Below, in pieces: positions 26,884-61,159 of a DNA stretch of 64,000 nucleotides. This DNA comes from Sphingosinicella sp. CPCC 101087 (GTDB lineage Bacteria > Pseudomonadota > Alphaproteobacteria > Sphingomonadales > Sphingomonadaceae): contig NZ_SBFF01000014.1 in assembly GCF_004151485.1 (NCBI RefSeq), positions 62,001-126,000 of the forward strand. Reading direction: 5' to 3'. Position numbers and translations under genes: made by a program. Under the pieces are notes generated by a model. It was not told the DNA's origin. It saw nothing but the letters and a program-made list of their open reading frames with translations, and did not search any database. How positions within the stretch are numbered: the first letter of the stretch is position 1; the number at the start of each line of letters is the position of its first letter.

Positions 26884-27372
26884 TCAGCCGGAAGCCATGT
26901 CCACCTTCTCGTTCCTGCCCATCGCCGGGCGCGTATCGGAGACGGCGGCGGCGGCCATGCGGATGTAGGCGCGCAGCGTGCCGGGGCTGTCCCAATATTG
27001 CGCCTCGACCGGAGTCACCTTGAGGACGCGGATGGAGGGATCGTCGGGGCTGTCCCACCAGGCCTTGGCCGGCGTGCCGAACAGGTCCCTGATCTTCTCG
27101 CGGTCGTTCGACACGGCCGCCCGGCCGACGAGCGAGACATAATTCTGGCCGGACGGGTCGGCGAAGGCGAGATTGACCTGCGGCCGCGCCGCGATCTCGT
27201 CATCCTTGGCGCTCTCGGCATCGGTGAGGAAGTAGATGAGATTCTCCTCGGGCCGGACATAAGCGGCCATCGGGCGCGATCGTATCTCCTCGCCGTCATG
27301 GCTGGAGAGCATGCAGAAGGTGATCTTCTCCATCAGCTCCCAGACGTGGGCGGTGTCGTTGGTGTCGGGCAT
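26884..27372 (-). CDS. PNPOx-fold flavin-binding protein (general stress protein 26-like)
   Basis: The 162-residue product starts at the ATG at 27370-27372, which follows AGGAGG. It has the split-barrel pattern of the pyridoxamine 5'-phosphate oxidase superfamily: MLSSHDGEEIRSRPMAAYV, IYFLTDAESAKDDEIAARP and VNLAFADPSGQNYVSLVGRA. Members bind flavins and are often stress-induced. The neighbouring gene at 27566 is a divergent relative. Confidence 0.85.
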   Translation of the reverse strand: MPDTNDTAHVWELMEKITFCMLSSHDGEEIRSRPMAAYVRPEENLIYFLTDAESAKDDEIAARPQVNLAFADPSGQNYVSLVGRAAVSNDREKIRDLFGTPAKAWWDSPDDPSIRVLKVTPVEAQYWDSPGTLRAYIRMAAAAVSDTRPAMGRNEKVDMASG

Positions 27373-27565
27373 GGGTGGGCCTCCTTGGTGGGGTTCGATG
27401 GACCAAGGTCCGGGAGGGGGGAGAGGTTCCCGGTCCGGCGGCGGCTCGCCGAACGGCAGGGCCGGGCCGAGCGCATCACCGCACTCGGTCGTCGGGCGAC
27501 GCATCGAGCCCCGGAACTTCGGCCTCGCATCCGGGGTTGGGCGGCCCGACAGGAAGGATGAAGCG

Positions 27566-28063
27566 ATGCCGAACGAAGCCGCGCTCGAAGCCCGATTCTG
27601 GAGGGCCATCGCCGACGACATGACGGTGATGTTGGGCCTCGCCGACCGCGCCGAGCGCCGCGCGCAGCCGATGACGGCGCAGCTCGGCGGCCGCGAGGGG
27701 CGTGGGCCGATCTGGTTCTTCACCTCGACCGAGGCCGACCTGGTGCGCGATCTCGGCCCCGGCGCGCCGGCCTTGCTCCACTTCGCGGCGAAGGGGCACG
27801 AGCTGTTCGCGTCGATCGAGGGCCGGCTGGTGCCGGACGACGATCCGGCGACGATCGACCGGCTGTGGAATCGCTTCGTCGCGGCGTGGTTCGAAGAGGG
27901 GCGCGACGATCCCAAGCTCAAGTTGCTCCGCTTCGATCCCGAAAGCGCTCAGATCTGGCTCAACGAGAACAGCCTGTTCGCGGGCGTGAAGATGCTGCTC
28001 GGCGCGGATCCGAAGAAGGATTATGCGGACAAAGTGGCCGAGGTGGAGATGGACGGCCGCTGA
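27566..28063 (+). CDS. PNPOx-fold protein (general stress protein 26-like)
   Basis: The 165-residue product has the same split-barrel layout as the divergent gene at 26884-27372: MTVMLGLADRAERRAQPMTA, GPIWFFTSTEADLVRDL, ALLHFAAKGHELFASIEGRL and a C-terminal WLNENSLFAGVKMLLG region as in Gsp26-like proteins. AGGAAGGATGAAGCG precedes the chosen ATG. Confidence 0.82.
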   Translation: MPNEAALEARFWRAIADDMTVMLGLADRAERRAQPMTAQLGGREGRGPIWFFTSTEADLVRDLGPGAPALLHFAAKGHELFASIEGRLVPDDDPATIDRLWNRFVAAWFEEGRDDPKLKLLRFDPESAQIWLNENSLFAGVKMLLGADPKKDYADKVAEVEMDGR

Positions 28064-28602: not shown

Positions 28603-28634
28603 TTTTCGGTTGGGCCCGTTCTTTTTTTCGGTTG
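28603..28634. promoter_or_regulatory. Direct repeat in the ridA-lrp divergent promoter region
   Basis: TTTTCGGTTG occurs at 28603-28612 and again at 28625-28634, 22 bases apart (about two helical turns), ending two bases before the lrp-type ATG. Lrp-type dimers often bind such repeats, so it may be an autoregulatory operator. Function is inferred. Confidence 0.4.
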
Positions 28635-28636
28635 CC

Positions 28637-29107
28637 ATGGACGCGATTGACCGCCGGCTGATCGCGCTGCTTCGGGAGGATGCCAGCCGCCCGCTCAAGG
28701 CGCTGGCCGGGGCGGTGTCGCTCTCGGCCAGCAGCGTGCGCGAGCGGATCCAGCGGCTGGTGGCGCGCGGCGAAATCGTCCGCTTCACCATCGAGACCCC
28801 GCCGCCGCCCAATGGCTGCGCGGCGATCCTCCTCGTCCGCCTGAACAGGACGCCCGACCCGGAGGTGGTCCGCGCGATCGGCGCCCGCGGCGACGTGCGG
28901 CGCTGCTACTCGCTGAGCGGGCCGATCGACCTGATGGTGGAGGTGGGCGCCGGGAGCGTGGCGGAGATCAACCGGGCGCGGGACGAGATTTCGGGGCTGG
29001 CCGGCGTGACGGCGGTGGAGACGTCGTTCGTGCTGAAGGAAGACAAGGTTGAGGGGGTGGGGCCTACGGCGAACTCACTGGCGGCTTCGCAGGCTGCTAC
29101 TGGCTGA
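28637..29107 (+). CDS. Lrp/AsnC-family transcriptional regulator
   Basis: The 156-residue product begins MDAIDRRLIALLREDASRPL and has the Lrp helix-turn-helix (AGAVSLSASSVRERIQRLVARG, split here over residues 24-45), then the RAM domain (GPIDLMVEVGAG and VTAVETSFVLKED). Members sense amino acids and often control the neighbouring gene, here a divergent ridA. The last 15 residues after VLKEDKVEG look unlike the family and may derive from the inserted DNA that follows. Confidence 0.88.
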   Translation: MDAIDRRLIALLREDASRPLKALAGAVSLSASSVRERIQRLVARGEIVRFTIETPPPPNGCAAILLVRLNRTPDPEVVRAIGARGDVRRCYSLSGPIDLMVEVGAGSVAEINRARDEISGLAGVTAVETSFVLKEDKVEGVGPTANSLAASQAATG

Positions 29108-29407
29108 ATGCCGAAGAACGCGTAGAGTTGCGGCGTAAGTCGTGCGCGTCGAGTGGCCGGCGCCGTGAATTCAGTGTTGTGTCCCCGGAATTCCGGGCGA
29201 TTTGAGTAGGATGTGCCCAGAATTCCAATTGTTGCGAGGCGTAGATTTCTCGCCGCCATCTTCGACGTGGTGCAAGCGCCTCGGTGTCGCGTTCGAGACC
29301 CACCCCGTTGGCACGGTTTGAGGCCGCAACGAACACGTTCCATACTTGTTCTAGTTGGTGTATGGGCCGTCGCAGGATAGGGGCGCCAGGAGAATGACGA
29401 GATTGCG
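29108..29407. other. Left flank of the low-GC insert
   Basis: About 300 bases without a gene. GC drops here relative to the left side. A perfect 14-base palindrome, CCCGGAATTCCGGG, lies at 29184-29197. No direct repeat matching the right end (31480-31643) was found by eye, and no tRNA is present. Confidence 0.45.
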
Positions 29408-30190
29408 ATGTCAGAGTCGCAGATAGAATGGACGGATGCCACGTGGAATCCGGTGGTCGGCTGCTCGATTACGAGCGCTGGCTGCACACATTGCTATGCA
29501 ATGGACATGGCCCGTCGACTGGAGGCAATGGGTGCCGCCAAATATGCCGGCCTGACCCGCCGCAGCGGCGGCCGCACGATCTGGAACGGGAAGGTCCGGG
29601 AGGATTCGAGCGCGCTCGCCAACCCACATCGTTGGCGAAAGCCGCGCAAGATCTTCGTCAACTCGATGAGTGATCTATTCCACGAAGGCGTGAGCGACAT
29701 GTTCATCCTCGCTGTCTGGAAGGTCATGCGCGAGACGCCCCGTCACCACTATCAAATCCTCACTAAGCGGCCTGAGCGGATGGCAACGGTGGTTTCGACC
29801 TTGATCGGCGACGTGCTGCCCAACGTCTGGCTCGGAACGAGTGTCGAGAATGCCGATGTCGCTGAGCGCATCGGCCACCTGCGCGCTGTGCCCGCAGCGA
29901 TCCGTTTCCTATCGTTTGAGCCGCTGATCGGCTCAGTTGGCGAGGTTGATCTTTCCGGCATCGACTGGGCAATCGTTGGCGGCGAAAGCGGGCGCTCGGC
30001 GCGTCCTATCCGCGAGGCGTGGATCGATGAGATCCATGCGCAATGTCTTACCTACGGCACGGCTTTTTTCTTTAAGCAATGGGGAACGTGGGGTAAAGAC
30101 AACAAACGCCGGTCTAAAAAGGCGAACGGTCGCGAATATCGCGGGAGAACCTGGAACGATATGCCGGCGGCCTTTTCCGCCAGCCTCTAG
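29408..30190 (+). CDS. Three-Cys-motif phage Gp37/Gp68-family (DUF5131) protein
   Basis: The 260-residue product has the family start IEWTDATWNPVVGCSITSAG and then CTHCYA, so three cysteines are spaced C-x6-C-x2-C near residues 19-29. It continues with IFVNSMSDLFHEGVSD, HHYQILTKRPERM, NVWLGTSVENADVAERI, RFLSFEPLIGSV and WAIVGGESG, all typical of Gp37/Gp68 proteins. The compact cysteines suggest a metal or Fe-S site; the biochemical function is not established. It lies 31 bases before tcmP in a low-GC insert. Members of this family and TcmP are known neighbours in many bacteria. Confidence 0.9.
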   Translation: MSESQIEWTDATWNPVVGCSITSAGCTHCYAMDMARRLEAMGAAKYAGLTRRSGGRTIWNGKVREDSSALANPHRWRKPRKIFVNSMSDLFHEGVSDMFILAVWKVMRETPRHHYQILTKRPERMATVVSTLIGDVLPNVWLGTSVENADVAERIGHLRAVPAAIRFLSFEPLIGSVGEVDLSGIDWAIVGGESGRSARPIREAWIDEIHAQCLTYGTAFFFKQWGTWGKDNKRRSKKANGREYRGRTWNDMPAAFSASL

Positions 30191-30221
30191 TGCGGGACTG
30201 GCGTCAGCGGCGGGGGACTAG

Positions 30222-31479
30222 ATGGCCGAGAAGCCGTATGAGTGGGCTGAGGGCGCGACGCTAGAGGATCATTCGCGGCGCAAGCATAAAATTCTGAGGG
30301 AATATTTTGCGGAGTATTTGGCAGTGCGCTGCCAGCATCCTCAACAGGAGCGGTTCCGGCTCGCCATTGTCGAAGGATTCGCTGGCGGCGGCCGTTACAA
30401 GTGCGGCACGGCCGGCTCTCCGGTCATCTTCATTGAGGAGCTGAAGCGAGCGATCGAGGGTGCCAACATGCAACGCGCCGTGAACGGCTTCGCACTCATC
30501 GAGATGGAGTGCCTGTTGATCCTCAACGACTTGAGCCGTGACGCGATCGAGGGCCTCAAAGGCCACATGGCACCGCTGCAGGCTGAGATTGCCGAGAGTG
30601 TACCCCGGCTTCATCTTCGGGTTGAGTATTTGAACCACACCTTCGAGGGCGCCTATCCCCGCGTCAAAGAGTTCATTAGCGCGGGCCGCTATCGCAACGT
30701 CCTGTTCAATCTGGACCAATGCGGACACAGCCGTGTCGAACATAGAACGCTGCTCGACATTATGCGTTCGACGCAGCATCCCTCCGTGGAGGTATTCTAT
30801 ACCTTCGCGATAGAGGCGTTGTTGTCATTTCTCGAGAAATCGGATCCCGATCGCCTCAAGGCGCAACTTCGTCCCTTTGGCATCAACTCGATTGAGCTTG
30901 GCGCTTGATGGGTTGATGGGTAAGAACACTTGGCTCGGGGCGGCCGAGCGCTTGGTGTTTGGAACGTTCGAGCGATGCGCGCCGTTTGTTAGCCCCTTCT
31001 CCATCAACAATCCCACCGGCTGGCGATATTGGCTGATTCACTTCGCTAACAGCTATCGCGCGCGGCAGGTCTATAACAATGTGCTGCACCGGAACAGCAG
31101 CGACCAGGCCCATTTCGGCCGTTCGGGCCTAAACATGCTTTCCTATAACCCCGATCAAGAGGATGGGTCGCTCTACCTATTCGATGCCTCCGGTCGGGAG
31201 GATGCCCGGACCCAGCTCATATCCGACATTCCACGCCTTATCTCGCATTCAGGGGACGCGCTCGGAGTGAGCGAATTCTACGAAAGCATCTACAATGCGA
31301 CGCCGGCGCACACTGATGACATTCACGAGGCGATCATCGAGAATCCGGACGTGGAGGTACTAACACCCGCGGGTGGAGAACGACGCAACGCTCATACAAT
31401 CGGGATTGGCGACATCCTAAAACTCAAGCGCCAGAAGAGTTTCTTTCCGATGTTTCTGGATGCGACAAGGCGTCCCTGA
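30222..31479 (+). pseudogene. tcmP: Three-Cys-motif partner protein TcmP, frameshifted
   Basis: TcmP is the regular partner of the three-Cys Gp37/Gp68 family. The first frame (30222-30908) encodes 228 residues (AIVEGFAGGGRYKCG, NVLFNLDQCGHSRV). It then stops at a TGA. The rest of the family pattern resumes in the next frame at about 30885-30916: LMGKNTWLGAAERLVFG, CAPFVSPFSINNPTGW, QAHFGRSGLNMLSYNP, and runs to 31479. The shift is one base forward, so one base was gained or two lost. Both halves look well kept, so the break is recent or a sequence error. No classical slippery site was seen. Confidence 0.8.
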
Positions 31480-31643
31480 AGTTAGCATAACGCGCGCATC
31501 TCTGATCCGCGTATTCTGAGCACATCGGTTGATGATCCGTAGTCAGCCTGCGCTCGTAACTTCGCTCCGTTCCACTATGTCGCATCCACAACACAGTGGT
31601 GATCGCCCTTTAGCTCGCTAGGATGGGAACGTAAAAGCCCGCG

Positions 31644-33815: not shown

Positions 33816-34448
33816 CTAGACGATGCGGGTGCAGGGGCTGGTGGCGCCGCTGCCGTCGGGCCCCCACTTGCGATAGCCGCGCGAATCGACGTGGAAGCGC
33901 ACGCCGCTATAGAAGCCGAGGCCGGCCTCATAGGCCTGGCCCTGCTTCGCATGGGCGGTGCAGACCCCGCGGATCAACGAGTCGCGCGTGACGTCGGCCG
34001 CGATCGGCACCAGGTCGAGCGCGAAGAACATGCGGTGCGCGCTGGCCGGCGCGCCGTTCGAGCAGGCGTTCAGCCCCTCGTTGCGATAGCCGGACAGGGC
34101 CTCTACCGCGCCGATCGACGGAACGACCTGATCCCGGACGAACCTCAGCGTCGTCACGATATGGTCCCAATTGCGGGCCGGCGCGACTTCGAAGGGAGTC
34201 GCGGCGCACTGGCGCCAGCTGTGGGAGGTGCGGACGAGCTGCCAGACCGGAACGACCGATTCGACCCCTTCATCGGCCAGCCGGTCGCGAAAGGATATCA
34301 CCTCGTTTCGATGCTCGGGAGCACGGGCGAGCCAGGCGTAATAATCGGCGCGGGACTGGCCGGGCGCGGCCTCGCTCTGCGCCTGGGCCGCGCCGGGAGC
34401 GAATGCGAGCGATGCCGCAATTGCGGCTCCGGAAATAAAGTTGCGCAT
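33816..34448 (-). CDS. Exported M15-like peptidase (D-Ala-D-Ala carboxypeptidase-like)
   Basis: The 210-residue product has a signal peptide (AAIAASLAFAPGAAQAQ). The mature part contains the M15 metal-site pattern: LSGYRNEGLN, then SAHRMFFALDLVP (the His and Asp ligands) and RFHVDSRGYRKWG (the second His). This points to a zinc peptidase acting on peptidoglycan peptides. The gene next to it (34637-35407) is a paralogue with the same motifs in the same order, indicating tandem duplication. Substrate is not proven. Confidence 0.78.
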   Translation of the reverse strand: MRNFISGAAIAASLAFAPGAAQAQSEAAPGQSRADYYAWLARAPEHRNEVISFRDRLADEGVESVVPVWQLVRTSHSWRQCAATPFEVAPARNWDHIVTTLRFVRDQVVPSIGAVEALSGYRNEGLNACSNGAPASAHRMFFALDLVPIAADVTRDSLIRGVCTAHAKQGQAYEAGLGFYSGVRFHVDSRGYRKWGPDGSGATSPCTRIV

Positions 34449-36946: not shown

Positions 36947-37008
36947 AGCTCTAATCTTGCAGAAGGCGCGGCATCGTTGAGCCTGGATGGGCCTTGGAAG
37001 GGACCACG

Positions 37009-38526
37009 ATGCCTATCAGAAGCCGCGGGACCGGCGAAACCGCGAAAAAGAAAAGAGGATTTCTGGCGCGCCTCGCCCGCGACAATCAGGGCAATGTGCT
37101 TGCGATTATGGCCGCGGCCCTGGTGCCGCTGGCGGGGATGGTCGGCTCCGGCCTTGATATCGGCCGCGCCTACATGACCAAAGCGAAGCTGCAGACCGCC
37201 TGCGACGCCGCAGCGCTGGCCGCGCGCCGGAACATGGCCAACCTGAACCTTAACCAAGCATCGATCGACGAAGGCACCCGATTCTTCAACTTCAACTTTC
37301 CGGCCGGGACGATGGACACGCTTCCGGTCGACCTCGATATTACCGCGAGCGCCGCCGACGCCTCCGTGGTCCAGGTCAGCGCTTCCACCGAAATGCCAAC
37401 CACGATCATGCGGATGTTCGGCCAGACCTCAATCGCTCTGAGTGTTCAGTGCAGCGCGGACAAGGATTATGTGCACAACGACATCATGCTGGTGCTCGAC
37501 GTCACCGGCTCGATGAACTGCCGGGCCGGTGGAACCGGCACCTTTTGCGCGACCGAGCAAACGGGTTCGCGCCTTTCCCGCCTTCGGCTCGCCGCCGCCG
37601 CCTTATACCGGGCGCTCGAGGACGCAGAAGGCGTGCGGACACGCTACGGCTTCATGCCCTATTCGATGACGGTAAATGTCGGCCGCGATGTCCGGGCCGA
37701 AAATGCCGCCTGGATCCGCAGCCCCGCCACCTACCATGTCAGGAACTGCAACTCGTACGGCTGCAGTTGGGGCACCACTTCGCTAACCCGCTCAACGGAT
37801 TGGTTCAACAATACGTGGAGCGGCTGTCTCGAGGAACGCTCGACCGTCTCTCAGAACCATCAGTCGAACATCCGCATCTCTTCCGACGTCGCGCAGGCGG
37901 ACATAGACAGTGTTTCCACGACCGATGATCGGCTCAAGTGGCAGCCTTATGACGAGGATACGACCACGGGCGAGAGTGACGGCACTCACGCGACTCTTGC
38001 GCGCTTCTGTCCGACGCCGGCATTAAGGCTCGCAGAATACGAATCGGAAGACGACTTCCAGGACCAGGTGGATGCAAGCCTAGCCAGGGTCGGCGGCTAT
38101 ACCAACCACGATCTCGGGATGATGTGGGGCATGCGCTACCTGTCCTCCACGGGCATGTTTTCAGCCGACAATCCGACCGAAATAGATGACATTCGGGTCG
38201 ACAAGCACATCATCTTTTTGACCGACGGCGACATGACTGCTTCTAGCAGCAACTACAGTGCCTACGGCATCCCCAACGCCAGCAATCGAATGACGGGATC
38301 GGGTAACCTGGAGACCAAGCACAGGAACCGATTCTTCAACGCCTGCAACCGGGCGCGCCAGATGGGCATGACGGTGTGGGTGATCGCGATCGACATCCGC
38401 ACCCCCCAGGACGTTGAGCCATGCGCCTCCGGAGACGACCGCTTCTTCGTCTCCGACGGTTCCGACCTGGAAGAGGTGTTCCAACTGATCGGCCGGGGCA
38501 TCGGCCGGCTGAGACTGACCAATTGA
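37009..38526 (+). CDS. TadG-like pilus-assembly protein with von Willebrand A domain
   Basis: The 505-residue product starts with a charged segment, then the TadE/TadG-type membrane helix (NVLAIMAAALVPLAGMVGSG, about 28-47), which anchors it in the inner membrane. The periplasmic part contains a vWA domain with the metal site DVTGS in DIMLVLDVTGSMN (about 160-172) and the later HIIFLTDGDMTAS. A long Cys-containing insert lies between. GGAAGGGA precedes the ATG. It forms an overlapping operon with two TadE-like genes. No other Tad genes are in the window. Confidence 0.87.
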   Translation: MPIRSRGTGETAKKKRGFLARLARDNQGNVLAIMAAALVPLAGMVGSGLDIGRAYMTKAKLQTACDAAALAARRNMANLNLNQASIDEGTRFFNFNFPAGTMDTLPVDLDITASAADASVVQVSASTEMPTTIMRMFGQTSIALSVQCSADKDYVHNDIMLVLDVTGSMNCRAGGTGTFCATEQTGSRLSRLRLAAAALYRALEDAEGVRTRYGFMPYSMTVNVGRDVRAENAAWIRSPATYHVRNCNSYGCSWGTTSLTRSTDWFNNTWSGCLEERSTVSQNHQSNIRISSDVAQADIDSVSTTDDRLKWQPYDEDTTTGESDGTHATLARFCPTPALRLAEYESEDDFQDQVDASLARVGGYTNHDLGMMWGMRYLSSTGMFSADNPTEIDDIRVDKHIIFLTDGDMTASSSNYSAYGIPNASNRMTGSGNLETKHRNRFFNACNRARQMGMTVWVIAIDIRTPQDVEPCASGDDRFFVSDGSDLEEVFQLIGRGIGRLRLTN

Positions 38527-42247: not shown

Positions 42248-42324
42248 CGGGGAGTAGCTCAGCCTGGTAGAGCACTGTCTTCGGGAGGCAGGGGCCGGAG
42301 GTTCGAATCCTCTCTCCCCGACCA
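42248..42324 (+). tRNA. tRNA-Pro (anticodon CGG)
   Basis: The 77-base sequence folds into a full cloverleaf: acceptor CGGGGAG/CTCCCCG, D arm GCTC/GAGC, anticodon stem CTGTC/GGCAG with loop TTCGGGA (anticodon CGG, reading CCG), T arm GGAGG/CCTCT with TTCGAAT, discriminator A and encoded CCA. Confidence 0.97.
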
Positions 42325-42759: not shown

Positions 42760-44022
42760 CTATGACGGGCCCGCCAGATGTCCTGCAGCCTGTGCGTAGG
42801 CGAGCGCGGCCTCGACCGCATTGTCCCGTTTGTGCATGAGCGACGGCCAGTCCGGTGGCGCGTGCAGATCAGGGTAGATCGCATCGCGGCCTGCGCTGTC
42901 GAAACGGTAATGCCTGATCGAGCACGCGACCCGTATTTGCGAGTGTGGCAGCCTGAAGGTGTGAAGTTCTTGATAGCCGTTCGGTCGAGCGCCGGTCGGT
43001 TCGCCAACGAGCAGGGCCTCGGTCTCCCTTCGAAAATCCGAGGCGTTTGTCATCGCTGCAGAGAAGGTATGACGGCCGATCAGCACATGAAGCCGACCCT
43101 TGCGGTTAAGGGCGGGCATGTTCTGCAGCGGTTCGATGATGTGTTCGCGAGGAAGCGTATAATTGCCTCCGCGGTTGTCGCGCAGGTCGATCAGGAGCAC
43201 GCGCGGTGGTGCAGCCCGCAAATCATCGAACAGCGCGGCGGCCTTGCGTGCCAGATCGTCATATCTGCGAAACTGAAGATGTACCGCCTCTCCGTTGCCA
43301 AGCCTTGCCCATCCGAACGAAGGATCAGGCGTTGCGGGCTTTGTTGGACCGAGCGCGATCTCCAGCTGCCCATCGGGCAGACCTGCCGGCAAGGGCGTGA
43401 CGTCGAACGACGCCGGTCGACCAGCGATGTCATCGCCTTGAATTCGCACATGATCAGGCGAATCTATCACACCGAGCGCTGCCAGGAGTTCTGCGCGCCG
43501 CAGTCGCTCCGGACGTTGCGACAATAGATACCAGGCATTTTCGGCCTGCGGTATGACGCTATCCAGACGCCCGCTTATTTCCGCGATGGGCCGGCCATCG
43601 ATGCTCTTGATCTGCATGCCGAGAAGGTGCTGCATTTCAGGGGTTGTTCGGACCACCCTTACGCCATCGTCGAACCAAGCTGTTTCGAATGGAAAGGATC
43701 GGTACAGATCGCCCGCTGACAAGAATGTGTGCCCGTCGCCGGCCAGGGCGACGATGGACTGGAAGCCAGCGACAATCTCGAGCGGACGCAGCCGAGGAAT
43801 TCTTCGATGCAGGTCTGAAATAGCTGAACGAAACCTGCCTTCCGGGGTGTGGTGGAATAGATCCCGGTGATTTTCCTGCAGCTCTGCATATAAAAAGGCC
43901 AGGTCCTGCTGCCAATGCCGACCTGTCATTTGAGAGAATGTGGACGGGTGCGCGCGATAAAGTGGAGCGCCGATACCGAGGGCGGCCGCAGCAACCAACA
44001 ATTCACGTCGGGTCGGACTCAT
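42760..44022 (-). CDS. S41-like (tail-specific) peptidase with Tat-type leader
   Basis: The 420-residue product starts MSPTRRELLVAAAALGIGAP, a twin-arginine-like leader, suggesting folded export. The C-terminal half has S41 traits: VLLIDLRDNRGGNYTL, then VLIGRHTFSAAMTNASDF (catalytic Ser candidate in TFSAAM) and EALLVGEPTGARPNGY. The lysine general base is not obvious. The DNA is less GC-rich than its neighbours and the gene lies between the tRNA and pncB, which supports acquisition. Family call is moderate. Confidence 0.7.
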   Translation of the reverse strand: MSPTRRELLVAAAALGIGAPLYRAHPSTFSQMTGRHWQQDLAFLYAELQENHRDLFHHTPEGRFRSAISDLHRRIPRLRPLEIVAGFQSIVALAGDGHTFLSAGDLYRSFPFETAWFDDGVRVVRTTPEMQHLLGMQIKSIDGRPIAEISGRLDSVIPQAENAWYLLSQRPERLRRAELLAALGVIDSPDHVRIQGDDIAGRPASFDVTPLPAGLPDGQLEIALGPTKPATPDPSFGWARLGNGEAVHLQFRRYDDLARKAAALFDDLRAAPPRVLLIDLRDNRGGNYTLPREHIIEPLQNMPALNRKGRLHVLIGRHTFSAAMTNASDFRRETEALLVGEPTGARPNGYQELHTFRLPHSQIRVACSIRHYRFDSAGRDAIYPDLHAPPDWPSLMHKRDNAVEAALAYAQAAGHLAGPS

Positions 44023-44222
44023 GCCGTTTTCCAGAAGCAGCTTCTCTTTGAGCTGGATGCATAGAGGTCAACGACCGTTTCCAGCAAGCTGCACGCAGCC
44101 TCCTCCGGTCCTCTCTCTCCCCCACCCATCGGCGTGTGAGGCGGATCAGCCCCGCCTTTCACGATCCGGAACAGCTTCGACGGTGACGCGCTTCTGGATG
44201 CGTGGAGATCGGAACGCGCGCC

Positions 44223-45573
44223 ATGGACTTCGCGACCCGCGCCTATAATCACAGCTTCCCGTTCGACCCGATCGTCCGGTCGCTGCTCGACAATGATTTC
44301 TACAAGCTGCTCATGCAGCAGTTCATCTGGGAGCATTATCCCAACACGCGCGTCGGCTGGGCTGACCAACCGGACACGGGAGGTAGCGCTCGGACGCGAG
44401 CTGGACCTCGGCGAAGTGCGCGAGCAGCTCGACCATGTGCGCACCCTGCGCTTCACGCCGTCGGAGATCATCCACCTGCGCGGCCAGACCTTCTACGGCC
44501 AGAGCGGAATCTTTAAGGAAGGCTATCTCGAGACGCTGCGCGCCTTTCGCATGCCGGATTACGAGCTCGACGTCGCCCGGGACGGCCAACTCGATCTGCA
44601 TTTCGATGGGCTGTGGTGGCAAACGACAATGTGGGAGATTCCGGCGCTGGCGATCGTCAGCGAGCTTCGCGCCCGCAAGATCATGCGCGGCATGTCGCGG
44701 CCCGAGCTCGACATTCTCTACGCGCGCGCGAAGGTGAAGCTCTACGCCAAGCTGGAGCGCCTCCGAACGCTGGCCGAGCTCAACCTCAGCGACTTCGGCA
44801 CACGGCGCCGCCACGCTTTCCTGTGGCAGGAGCATTGCATCCTGACCGCCCGCGAGCTGCTTGGCGAGCGATTCACCGGCACGTCCAACGTCCATCTGGC
44901 CATGAAGCATGGGATGGAGGCGAAGGGGACCAACGGGCATGAGCTGCCGATGGTGCTTGCGGCGCTCGCGCGGCAAGCGCAGCCCGGCGACGCCCAGGCC
45001 CTCAGGCAGACGCAGTACAAGGTGCTGCAGCAATGGCAGACGGAGTATCGCGGCAATCTGCTGGTCTTCCTGCCCGACACCTTCGGAACGACACAGTTTC
45101 TGGAGGGCGCGCCGCAATGGGTCAGCTTCTGGACCGGCGCCAGGCCGGATTCCAAACCGCCGGTCGAAGCGGGCGAGGAGTTGATGGCCTTCTGGAAGCG
45201 GATGGGGCTCGGCGACCAGAGCATCGCTTCGGGCAAGCTGATCATCTTTGCCGATGCACTCGACGTCGGAATCGATGGCCACCCTCCCCGAGGCCATGAC
45301 ATCGTCGCGCTCGCCCGCCATTTCCAACGGCGCGTGCAGATCGCGTTCGGCTGGGGCACGCACTTCACGAACGACTTCGAAGGCAGCCATCCGCGCGGCG
45401 CGGACATCCTTCGGCCGATCTCGCTGGTGTGCAAGATCAGCTCCGTGAACGGCCATCCGGCGATCAAGCTCAGCGACAATGCGGCGAAGGCGATCGGACC
45501 GGCGGAGGAGGTGAAGGCCTATCGCGAGATCTTCGGCGCCGCAGGCGTGACGAGCCGCCCGTTGAACGCCTGA
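44223..45573 (+). pseudogene. pncB: Nicotinate phosphoribosyltransferase PncB, frameshifted
   Basis: PncB makes nicotinate mononucleotide from nicotinate in NAD salvage. The first frame (from ATG 44223) encodes the normal start ([20 protein letters not shown], then [21 protein letters not shown]). After the TGG at 44358-44360 the family sequence continues only in the next frame: [74 protein letters not shown], to 45573. Alignment with family members from memory (VTFSLINRT) fits two bases missing after TGG-G. Both halves are well kept, so the break is recent or an error. Confidence 0.85.
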
Positions 45574-60901: not shown

Positions 60902-61159
60902 TCAGCGCTTCAGCGCGACCAGCGACGCCATGTCGAGACGGCTCTGGGCGTCCATCGACAGCCGAGGCTCCGCCAAAATTCGATGCGCGATCCTCGCCGC
61001 GGCCTCCGGCTCGAGCTCGGGCACCGCGGTGCACAGCTCCGACGCCATCTGTTCGACCCAGCCTTCGGCCTTCGCGCCATCGCCGCCCCGCGCGGAGAGC
61101 AAGCGCTGAATCTCGTGCAGCGCCACCCGCACCACCGCTTCTTCCCGCTCCTTCGTCAC
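60902..61159 (-). CDS. Unknown small protein inside the flagellar cluster
   Basis: The 85-residue product starts at GTG (61157-61159), with GAAGGACGG at good spacing; the longer open frame has no sensible start. It is helical and acidic (KEREEAVVRVALHEIQRLLS, then AEGWVEQMASELCTAVPELE). It lies between flhB and fliD, so it may be a chaperone or regulator (FlgN/FliT-like helical size), but the family is not recognised. Confidence 0.5.
   Translation of the reverse strand: MTKEREEAVVRVALHEIQRLLSARGGDGAKAEGWVEQMASELCTAVPELEPEAAARIAHRILAEPRLSMDAQSRLDMASLVALKR

Follow-up and report, generated by a model that had tools for sequence, protein, structure and literature searches.

The low-GC segment between an Lrp-type gene and lepA raises the question of where its two genes came from, whether they still work together, and what such a pair does. 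The window was the whole stretch of DNA that was analysed (64,000 nucleotides). Our tentative answer, held at a little under an even chance, is that the segment is a horizontally moved two-gene cassette, which would encode a nucleic-acid-modification pair acting in phage or mobile-element conflict, and that tcmP has decayed here through a break that looks recent. The features of the locus were as follows:

28634..29107, + strand: Lrp/AsnC-type regulator, left neighbour on the host side (PF13404 and PF01037 over cut-off; GC3 0.911)
29108..29407, no strand: low-GC non-coding leader of the insert, holding TGTTGTGTCCCCGGAATT at 29175-29192
29408..30190, + strand: intact DUF5131 / Gp37-Gp68 gene (PF07505), 260 aa, radical-SAM-like
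29462..29494, + strand: codons of the three cysteines C19, C26 and C29 (Cx6Cx2C), from the DUF5131 alignment
30222..30908, + strand: 5' piece of tcmP, 228 aa, methyltransferase core (TIGR04474 1-185 of 263, 147.2 bits), ending at TGA 30906-30908
30372-30398, + strand: glycine-rich motif EGFAGGGRY in the 5' piece of tcmP
30708-30725, + strand: motif NLDQCG in the 5' piece of tcmP
30907..31479, + strand: 3' piece of tcmP in another frame, end of the core and C-terminal wHTH (its ORF begins at 30877 and overlaps the 5' piece)
31480..31643, no strand: low-GC non-coding tail, ending at the lepA stop codon
31644..33464, - strand: lepA, right neighbour, named by translation alone (DNA matches in 20/25 congeners)

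The GC content of 29108-31643 was 0.580, compared with a mean of 0.673 (SD 0.019, lowest 0.616) in 2.5-kb stretches outside it, which bore out the drop described in an earlier sequence-only reading of this DNA. GC3 was about 0.70 in the segment genes and 0.83-0.91 in four adjoining genes. That reading had set the segment between an Lrp gene and lepA; both flanks were identified. The 5' limit, set at the Lrp stop (29108), was approximate: across 29000-29200, GC in 100-base steps went down from 0.66 to 0.55. The last 16 bases of TGTTGTGTCCCCGGAATT (29177-29192) occurred once in the whole genome. No direct repeats of at least 14 bases flanked the segment, no tRNA was found at it, and no Rfam family was found at the insertion site. 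A search for a second lepA end within the window gave nothing convincing (best further match 20 bases, 61135-61154, E 0.007). The contig of the window had no match to PF00589, which covers the tyrosine integrase type only, at E<=1e-8, and no tyrosine integrase was found near lepA in 19 genomes (E<=1e-8, by-eye comparison). Neither the attachment repeats nor an integrase of the tyrosine type, as expected of a site-specific integrative element at lepA, were thus seen. Remnants of neighbour genes in the flanks were not detected at the protein level (best match E 0.032); one DNA match in the leader to such genes covered 25 bases (92%, E 0.006).

The DUF5131 product matched PF07505 over its full length (338.2 bits, E 3.6e-101, 1-243 of 243; gathering cut-off 28.9 bits). 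All three cysteines were present with the same spacing in 43/43 aligned rows; the usual radical-SAM cysteine spacing is Cx3Cx2C. The TIGR04471 model (radical SAM mobile pair protein A) scored 77 bits against a cut-off of 355. A search of solved structures by sequence gave no match at E<=1 for either the DUF5131 or the TcmP family. In the predicted DUF5131 model (pLDDT 90.6), radical-SAM proteins topped the fold list, none at E<=0.001, and the six best PDB matches were spore photoproduct lyase (E 1.6e-3 to 5.6e-3). These results suggested that DUF5131 may be a radical-SAM-like enzyme, with spore photoproduct lyase as its nearest relative by predicted fold.

The sequence-only reading had described a three-Cys protein followed by its TcmP partner. 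An intact DUF5131/Gp37-Gp68 gene was found, with a member of the TcmP family (TIGR04474) behind it, and this tcmP was split in two. The 5' piece scored over the curated TIGR04474 cut-off of 53 bits and the 3' piece under it (202-262, 44.8 bits); the GMT-wHTH family PF22560 scored 30.2 bits on the 3' piece, placing the wHTH at about 31144-31374. Together, the two pieces aligned head to tail along five intact homologues (403-419 aa). Comparison by hhalign of a deep TcmP profile with RlmJ gave 96.8% (E 2.5e-10) against 0.3% and 0.1% for two unrelated controls; a shallow profile gave only 1.9%, and the kinship held only with the deeper alignment. RlmJ is a 23S rRNA m6A methyltransferase, and the TcmP core aligned with it across motifs I to IV. 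The TcmP family thus has the homologous methyltransferase core of RlmJ and lacks its catalytic DPxY. NLDQCG was present in the window and in 52/59 close relatives, and D[PQ]xG in 34/36 rows of the deep set. Motif I of the window protein opened with E, at a position taken by D in at least 90% of 59 relatives. At E<=0.001, the TcmP model (pLDDT 74.9) matched six PDB chains, and every one was a SAM methyltransferase; the best fold matches were small-molecule enzymes (histamine, theobromine and xanthosine methyltransferases), with low whole-length TM. What appears to be new is an RlmJ-like TcmP core with a changed motif IV, together with a placement of DUF5131 near spore photoproduct lyase and the finding that DUF5131 accompanies TcmP in every sampled TcmP genome, yet itself often has no recognised TcmP, most of all on viral contigs. 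Since the catalytic motif of RlmJ is altered in TcmP, the chemistry of RlmJ need not hold.

Two questions about the locus itself had to be weighed. If the two genes were long-standing low-GC residents of the lineage and no insertion had occurred, this would agree with ends unmarked by repeats and with the lack of an identified donor. The comparison of relatives that the sequence-only reading had proposed spoke the other way: the pair stood at lepA in 0/18 fetched congeneric lepA neighbourhoods, so that a shared position in all relatives, which would have told against that reading, was not seen, and TcmP was present in 3/25 other congeners, away from lepA in the two in which lepA was placed. 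Full-length relatives came from bins named Rhodothermales, Thermoanaerobaculia, Bryobacterales and Binatota, in addition to alphaproteobacteria, and the low GC3 also argued against residence, which we consider highly improbable. An empty site was sought in the 20 congeners in which lepA had been placed, and none had an Lrp match beside it (by-eye comparison); the exact insertion ends were thus not fixed by comparison. Composition and distribution support the view that the segment is horizontally acquired, foreign-looking DNA next to lepA.

The frame of tcmP broke near 30905-30908. The break might stem from an error in sequencing or assembly; alternatively, frameshifting might read through it, or tcmP might be expressed as two coupled fragments. 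In any of these cases, the pair would be active here. In both pieces, pN was 0.13-0.19 against a near-saturated pS of 0.66-0.76, so the break looks recent or else is a sequence error; it also fell where the alignments are poorly conserved, and 79/80 retained homologues had a single open frame, in a search biased to unbroken genes. On the other side, an equivalent break was seen in 0/7 relatives aligned across it, and eight bases repeated in tandem at the break (30905-30912 and 30913-30920, by eye) fitted a real slippage event. The genome was 99.96% complete with 0.75% contamination, a weak guide to single bases. An error or a readable tcmP seemed rather doubtful to us. Because tcmP is broken, the pair, which the sequence-only reading had taken as a working unit, probably no longer works as a pair in this genome and is probably decayed; DUF5131 could still act alone.

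In other genomes, the two genes were closely associated. DUF5131 lay beside TcmP in 80/80 genome loci and was co-directional in 79. TcmP genes over the cut-off had DUF5131 within 3 kb in 29/30 cases (class sample) and 27/27 cases (phylum sample), and the sole exception among these 57 places was at a contig start. All 50 genomes with an over-cut-off TcmP in the two samples held DUF5131, and no such TcmP was found at 29/58 and 24/48 DUF5131 places; the TIGR04474 cut-off misses divergent partners, and a wider profile found one at 25/29 best class loci. The distance matrices of the two families correlated (n=69), with r 0.665, and none of 1000 permutations exceeded 0.259. Of the DUF5131 genes at the 80 TcmP loci, 76 were complete and the other 4 ran off a contig end. 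Four loci, the one in the window among them, had an intact DUF5131 and a tcmP that was broken or had been lost: in Sphingomonas sp. NIC1, an IS3 lay behind the first codons of tcmP; in Mesorhizobium helmanticense (L225), the frame broke near the 3' end; and at G217, no tcmP was found within the 1.5 kb examined, tcmP being intact in its sister G085. Selective loss of tcmP alone was considered on these four cases and set aside, as it is weakened by the plasmid loci L336 and L337, where DUF5131 itself is damaged and TcmP is truncated or missing. On viral contigs, 32/47 DUF5131 copies had no recognised TcmP-like neighbour; after exclusion of identical rows, short matches and cases at contig edges, 26 stood alone and 14 were paired. 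In the DUF5131 tree, 17/24 solitary viral copies fell into one group, within which paired copies were nested.

DUF5131 was over cut-off in 54/385 and 40/398 sampled genomes; it was found in 159/50,697 phage records and in 407/72,556 plasmid records, and pairs were found on conjugative plasmids. The recurrence in mobile settings that had been claimed for the pair was thus seen on plasmids, on viral contigs and in bins of other phyla. Genes near the pairs included CBASS, AbiE, R-M, HamA/HamB, a Mrr-type endonuclease, a PIN toxin and DarT, as well as an ArdC-like anti-restriction gene and conjugation proteins (TrbI). On the suggested check for defence enrichment, defence genes were among the neighbours, and the sole control comparison counted models, not genes.

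How might such a pair act? In the reading that we tentatively prefer, it was acquired from outside and then parked downstream of lepA. DUF5131, as a radical-SAM-like protein with Cx6Cx2C, would modify a DNA or RNA base, first or independently, and TcmP, with its RlmJ-like S-adenosylmethionine methyltransferase core, would modify a base in dependence on DUF5131. The C-terminal winged helix of TcmP may pick the target, and the modification would play its part in conflicts with phages or with other mobile DNA. That many relatives of DUF5131 reside in phages counts against this reading, as do the altered RlmJ motif and the small-molecule enzymes among the best TcmP fold matches. By sequence and predicted model, the kinship of the two proteins fits the RNA or DNA modification that the sequence-only reading had considered beside phage interaction; the role itself stays putative.

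Other roles were weighed on the same evidence. The pair might instead serve the mobile element, marking plasmid or phage DNA against host restriction or other defences, with its nearness to defence genes reflecting common mobile real estate. The phage and plasmid records, the conjugative plasmids that carry pairs, the many solitary viral copies, and ArdC and TrbI among the neighbours agree with such anti-restriction; in our judgement, however, being tightly clustered with toxin pairs and defence operons, or occurring once on a chromosome as in the window, is more typical of defence cargo, and we regard this role as rather unlikely. Slightly less probable is an effector with its guard, in which active TcmP would be harmful (e.g., by modifying tRNA, rRNA or DNA), DUF5131 would undo or prevent the harm, and solitary phage DUF5131 would be a counter-defence. 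TcmP hardly ever occurring without DUF5131, the four loci in which only tcmP was hit, and the full-length DUF5131 genes point to it. The same asymmetry would be expected if TcmP simply needs the product of DUF5131, the cut-off overlooks divergent partners, and each search is biased towards unbroken copies of the gene it started from; the damaged L336 and L337 also argue against a guard, as do the solitary viral copies, which are not captures from the clade of the window. A more elaborate proposal is two-step base-modifying immunity, in which a radical-SAM DUF5131 akin to spore photoproduct lyase and an RlmJ-derived new-site methyltransferase would jointly hypermodify a base in the nucleic acid of phage or host, with solitary phage DUF5131 genes as captured or co-evolved pre-emptive counter-measures; we consider it distinctly improbable. 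We retain, with the reservation stated at the outset, the less specific modification pair.

The interest of the pair lies in a common DUF5131, in its place beside known defence operons and in a chemistry absent from the literature found. With the kinship to RlmJ and spore photoproduct lyase and the constant presence of DUF5131 in TcmP genomes, a concrete and testable modification hypothesis is available for an unnamed pair. The copy in the window carries little weight of its own because it is broken: the two-gene set is of a known, still unexplained kind, and its copy here is an ordinary and probably disabled one. The available portions of the literature found (including PMC12445080, PMC12429752, PMC10855318, PMC11878078, PMC10853773 and PMC12988326) held no function or chemistry for DUF5131/TcmP, in agreement with the earlier view that neither family has a proven function, and PMC12839542 contained no mention of terms for the pair or its families.

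Among known systems, the nearest structural matches of the DUF5131 model were to spore photoproduct lyase, a radical-SAM DNA repair enzyme, from which DUF5131 differs by its Cx6Cx2C and an identity of 10-11%. TcmP resembles RlmJ (PF04378) in KH (26/36 deep rows) and GSP (27/36). It differs in motif IV, where DPxY (DPSY in 6/6 RlmJ) becomes D[PQ]xG, in its additional C-terminal wHTH, and in being mobile rather than housekeeping. The order and strand of the window genes were those of 79/80 TIGR04474 TcmP and PF07505 DUF5131 loci, from which the window pair differs by a split tcmP and a motif I that opens with E instead of D. Sinorhizobium meliloti 1021 pSymA carries DUF5131 and two TcmP-family genes. 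At its Hna locus, DUF5131 and the long TcmP adjoin hna, and the second, short TcmP-family gene adjoins an 845-aa helicase on the same strand, whereas the window pair has no adjacent helicase. In the part available, a paper on S. meliloti pSymA Hna places the SMa2243 TcmP under Hna; as far as the available part of PMC12445080 goes, hna alone restores complete resistance after pSymA loss, so the pair would not be needed against those phages although pSymA carries it.

The closest likeness was to PDC-M30/M41, unvalidated PADLOC candidate systems based on guilt-by-embedding, for which the accessible portions of the literature searched gave no validation against phage. PDC-M30 occurred in 32/100 P. 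aeruginosa strains, 68.8% of those 32 being resistant, a correlation only (PMC10855318, available part). DUF5131 matched the B models (PDC-M41B 331 bits, E 7.8e-100; PDC-M30B 311 bits, E 1.5e-93) and the 5' piece of tcmP the A models (PDC-M30A E 7e-17); the 3' piece matched no PADLOC model at E<=0.1. Because of these matches, the poorly described two-protein system anticipated by the sequence-only reading is of a kind already listed, with its function still unexplained in the literature found. As in PDC-M30/M41, the genes are adjacent and co-directional, 31 bases apart. They differ in that the A-protein of the window is in two pieces, and B fits M41B slightly better and A fits M30A. The B component is thus present, and A does not stand beside it as one intact gene. 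Judged from these sequence matches, the window pair is a decayed member of PDC-M30/M41 rather than an intact one.

The segment at 29108-31643 had a GC content of 0.580, and 2.5-kb stretches outside it averaged 0.673 (SD 0.019, minimum 0.616). GC3 was 0.71 in the DUF5131 gene and 0.70 and 0.68 in the two pieces of tcmP, compared with 0.91, 0.90, 0.87 and 0.83 in lrp, lepA and two further neighbouring genes. These results confirmed the low GC noted in the sequence-only reading. Two more dips to about 0.60 were observed at 37000-38500 and 43000-44500, the latter lying just past tRNA-Pro (42248-42324). The pair was present in one copy in the 4.7-Mb genome, and its genes were as follows.

29408-30190: DUF5131, intact, 260 aa; PF07505 at 338 bits, entire model covered
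30222-30908: first piece of tcmP; TIGR04474 positions 1-185, then the frame ends
30877-31479: second piece of tcmP, an ORF in another frame overlapping the first; TIGR04474 positions 202-262, then GMT-wHTH

The two-protein pair proposed earlier thus stood in part: both families were matched and DUF5131 was intact, but tcmP was split between two frames. Five unbroken homologues, 403-419 aa long, could be aligned along the two pieces placed one after the other. In comparisons with five relatives, the first piece had a pN of 0.14-0.19 and the second 0.13-0.15, at a pS of 0.66-0.76; the corresponding values for DUF5131 were 0.11-0.14 and 0.62-0.69. Since pS was near saturation, pN/pS shows only that most divergence arose under constraint. 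The low pN in both pieces suggested that the break is probably recent, or an error. An 8-base tandem repeat was found by eye at the break. In motif I of the window TcmP (30372-30398), the first residue was E, and D occupied this position in at least 90% of 59 relatives. The tcmP of Mesorhizobium helmanticense (locus L225, 2891-4128) was likewise frame-broken near its 3' end, next to an intact DUF5131.

Eight intact TcmP proteins were aligned and used to search a genome collection, which confirmed 134 relatives. In the best 80 of these, DUF5131 adjoined TcmP in every case (same strand in 79) and was full length in 76 and clipped by a contig end in four. TcmP was a single open frame in all but the M. 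helmanticense locus, in a search that favours intact TcmP. The hosts were mostly alphaproteobacteria, including sphingomonads, together with bins named Rhodothermales, Thermoanaerobaculia, Bryobacterales and Binatota; lepA lay beside the pair in none of the 80 loci. In two partly overlapping spread samples (385 and 398 genomes), TcmP exceeded the cut-off at 30 and 27 places, 29 and 27 of which had DUF5131 no more than 3 kb away, the sole exception being at a contig start. All 50 TcmP genomes of the two samples together held DUF5131. Conversely, TcmP above the cut-off, which overlooks divergent partners, accompanied 29/58 and 24/48 DUF5131 places, fragments included. With a wider profile, a TcmP-like neighbour was found in 25 of 29 loci of the class (best matches besides the window's own) versus 15 of 47 viral contigs, where some DUF5131 copies sit at contig ends; after removal of contig-end cases, short matches and identical rows, 26 viral copies were alone and 14 paired. 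DUF5131 and TcmP distances were correlated (r 0.665, n=69; maximum over 1000 permutations 0.259). Collectively, the families recur as a pair, as had been claimed.

A quick tree was built from 137 DUF5131 rows thinned from 189, with six contig-end-cut rows excluded and phage row L143 carrying a cellular label. The paired or solitary state required 12 changes, with 63 of 134 inner branches weak. The supported set that contains the window numbered 48 rows: 42 cellular pairs, four viral pairs and two solitary cellular rows. One of the latter was Sphingomonas sp. NIC1, in which an IS3 followed the first codons of tcmP; the other, G217, showed no TcmP in the 1.5 kb covered, and its sister G085 has TcmP. 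A different supported set (31 rows) held 17 of 24 solitary viral copies, along with 14 paired rows.

Among 25 congeners compared, three carried TcmP, and in the two of these where lepA could be placed it lay away from lepA. lepA DNA was detected in 20 of the 25, and neighbourhoods were fetched for 18, one of which (G003) had only about 2.3 kb behind lepA on its contig. At E≤1e-15, neither DUF5131 nor TcmP was matched in any of the 18, so the suggested comparison of close relatives found the pair absent at lepA throughout. Judging from these comparisons, the cassette side of lepA is variable within the genus, because window genes to the left of the cassette were matched only in G006 (26884-27921 and an overlapping ORF, about 2 kb behind lepA). 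No Lrp match was found beside lepA in any of the 20 congeners. The gene at 33816-34448, on lepA's other side, was matched in 5 of the 18 neighbourhoods, several of which include little of that side.

A 16-base string at 29177-29192 occurred once in the genome, which hints that the foreign DNA starts upstream of it. TGTTGTGTCCCCGGAATT (29175-29204) resembles REP-type repeats, and its last 16 bases were unique in the genome. G018 has a similar string close to its lepA copies, and locus L292 matched 29180-29204 at 92%. Further lepA 3'-end copies were observed in G005 (L041 2595-2680; 84 bp, 91%, about 142 bp downstream of lepA) and, as two short ones shortly downstream, in G018 (L060 849-887 and 927-963); they look as if lepA's end once served as an integration site. 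No tyrosine integrase was found beside lepA at E≤1e-8.

The DUF5131 model (window protein, 43 aligned rows) reached a pLDDT of 90.6. Foldseek returned 780 PDB matches, none at E≤0.001; spore photoproduct lyase occupied the first six places (E 1.6e-3 to 5.6e-3, TM 0.46-0.51), and lipoyl synthase, MiaB, DesII and viperin followed further down, interspersed with unrelated barrels. TIGR04471 (radical SAM mobile pair A) scored 77 bits, under its cut-off of 355, and Cx6Cx2C was kept by 43/43 rows. For TcmP, the model of an intact Sphingomonas glacialis relative (L235, 59 rows; pLDDT 74.9) matched six PDB chains with E no higher than 0.001; every one was a small-molecule SAM methyltransferase, with whole-length TM ≤0.29. 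Sub-cut-off TcmP matches elsewhere included RlmJ-type proteins, six of which were aligned; the one tested belonged to PF04378 and matched solved RlmJ. A TcmP profile built from 36 diverse rows matched the six RlmJ at 96.8% (E 2.5e-10), compared with 1.9% for a shallow TcmP profile and, in control profiles, 0.3% for TcmP against DUF5131 and 0.1% for DUF5131 against RlmJ. RlmJ has DPSY (6/6), whereas TcmP has NLDQCG in 52 of 59 close relatives and D[PQ]xG in 34 of the 36 diverse rows.

The pairing, the mobility, the frame break and, at the Foldseek and profile level given, the folds were thus observed. RlmJ acts on rRNA and spore photoproduct lyase on DNA. Both proteins of the pair would use S-adenosylmethionine and may act on nucleic acid, because these two enzymes do so and the C-terminal part of TcmP is a winged helix. 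TcmP may need DUF5131, either for substrate or for protection; TcmP was never seen without DUF5131, which fits such an order and is compatible with both versions. The interest lies in the kinship and this pairing asymmetry rather than in the window locus. Both families had been described as lacking proven function, and our literature search turned up no study of their chemistry.

An anti-restriction role is favoured by the abundance in phages and plasmids, and a defence role by the neighbours. Of 407 plasmid records that carry DUF5131, we examined 19 high-ranking loci. The pair was adjacent in 15 (nine co-directional, six on opposite strands), DUF5131 was alone in two (NIC1 and Bartonella apihabitans), and in two it was damaged, with TcmP truncated or missing. 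Defence genes near the pairs included CBASS, RloB with an AAA ATPase, AbiE, a type ISP enzyme, a restriction endonuclease, and a helicase with a DNA methyltransferase and a GIY-YIG nuclease. Among the 80 genome loci, neighbour clusters, uncorrected for redundancy and each named from one to three members, included an upstream PIN-type gene in 17, a serine recombinase in 10, a HamB-like helicase in nine and HamA in five. In the suggested test for defence-gene enrichment, 127 PADLOC models were matched (E≤1e-15) by 121 near proteins versus 33 by 130 proteins at least 7.5 kb off (of 192 and 161 de-duplicated proteins), but these are counts of redundant models, with longer proteins on the near side, and give an indication, no rate. 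In 12 of the 80 loci an Mrr-type endonuclease gene started within 22 nt behind tcmP (e.g., L241 11263-12213), an arrangement that would make a modify-and-cut operon; in L225 it overlapped the frame-broken tcmP.

PADLOC already lists this kind as PDC-M30/M41, of which the window copy is probably a decayed member. PDC-M30/M41 are predicted by embedding (PMC10855318, PMC11878078), and most such candidates still await validation (PMC12988326). On Sinorhizobium meliloti pSymA, a second TcmP-family gene came after the pair; it is short (PDC-M41A, E 1.8e-61) and lies next to a helicase of 845 aa (PDC-S28). In PMC12445080, the entry for Hna (SMa2245) includes the TcmP SMa2243, the two being given as a putative transcriptional unit, and resistance is said to return with hna alone. 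The 845-aa helicase is probably Hna, and its short TcmP-family neighbour would be SMa2243. Two further rhizobial plasmids showed a similar layout, in which a DEAD/DEAH helicase accompanied two TcmP genes. Such a shorter additional TcmP-family gene lay adjacent to a DEAD/DEAH helicase, or close by, in three rhizobial loci.

L138, 10081-13623: shorter TcmP-family gene and helicase
L346, 7478-8759: shorter TcmP-family gene and helicase
L347, 6078-9912: shorter TcmP-family gene and helicase

The shorter gene of L138 carried the motif FLDPFG. Compared with the window's pair, which has no helicase beside it, the pSymA Hna locus differs in that its pair is joined by an extra short TcmP gene and a helicase.
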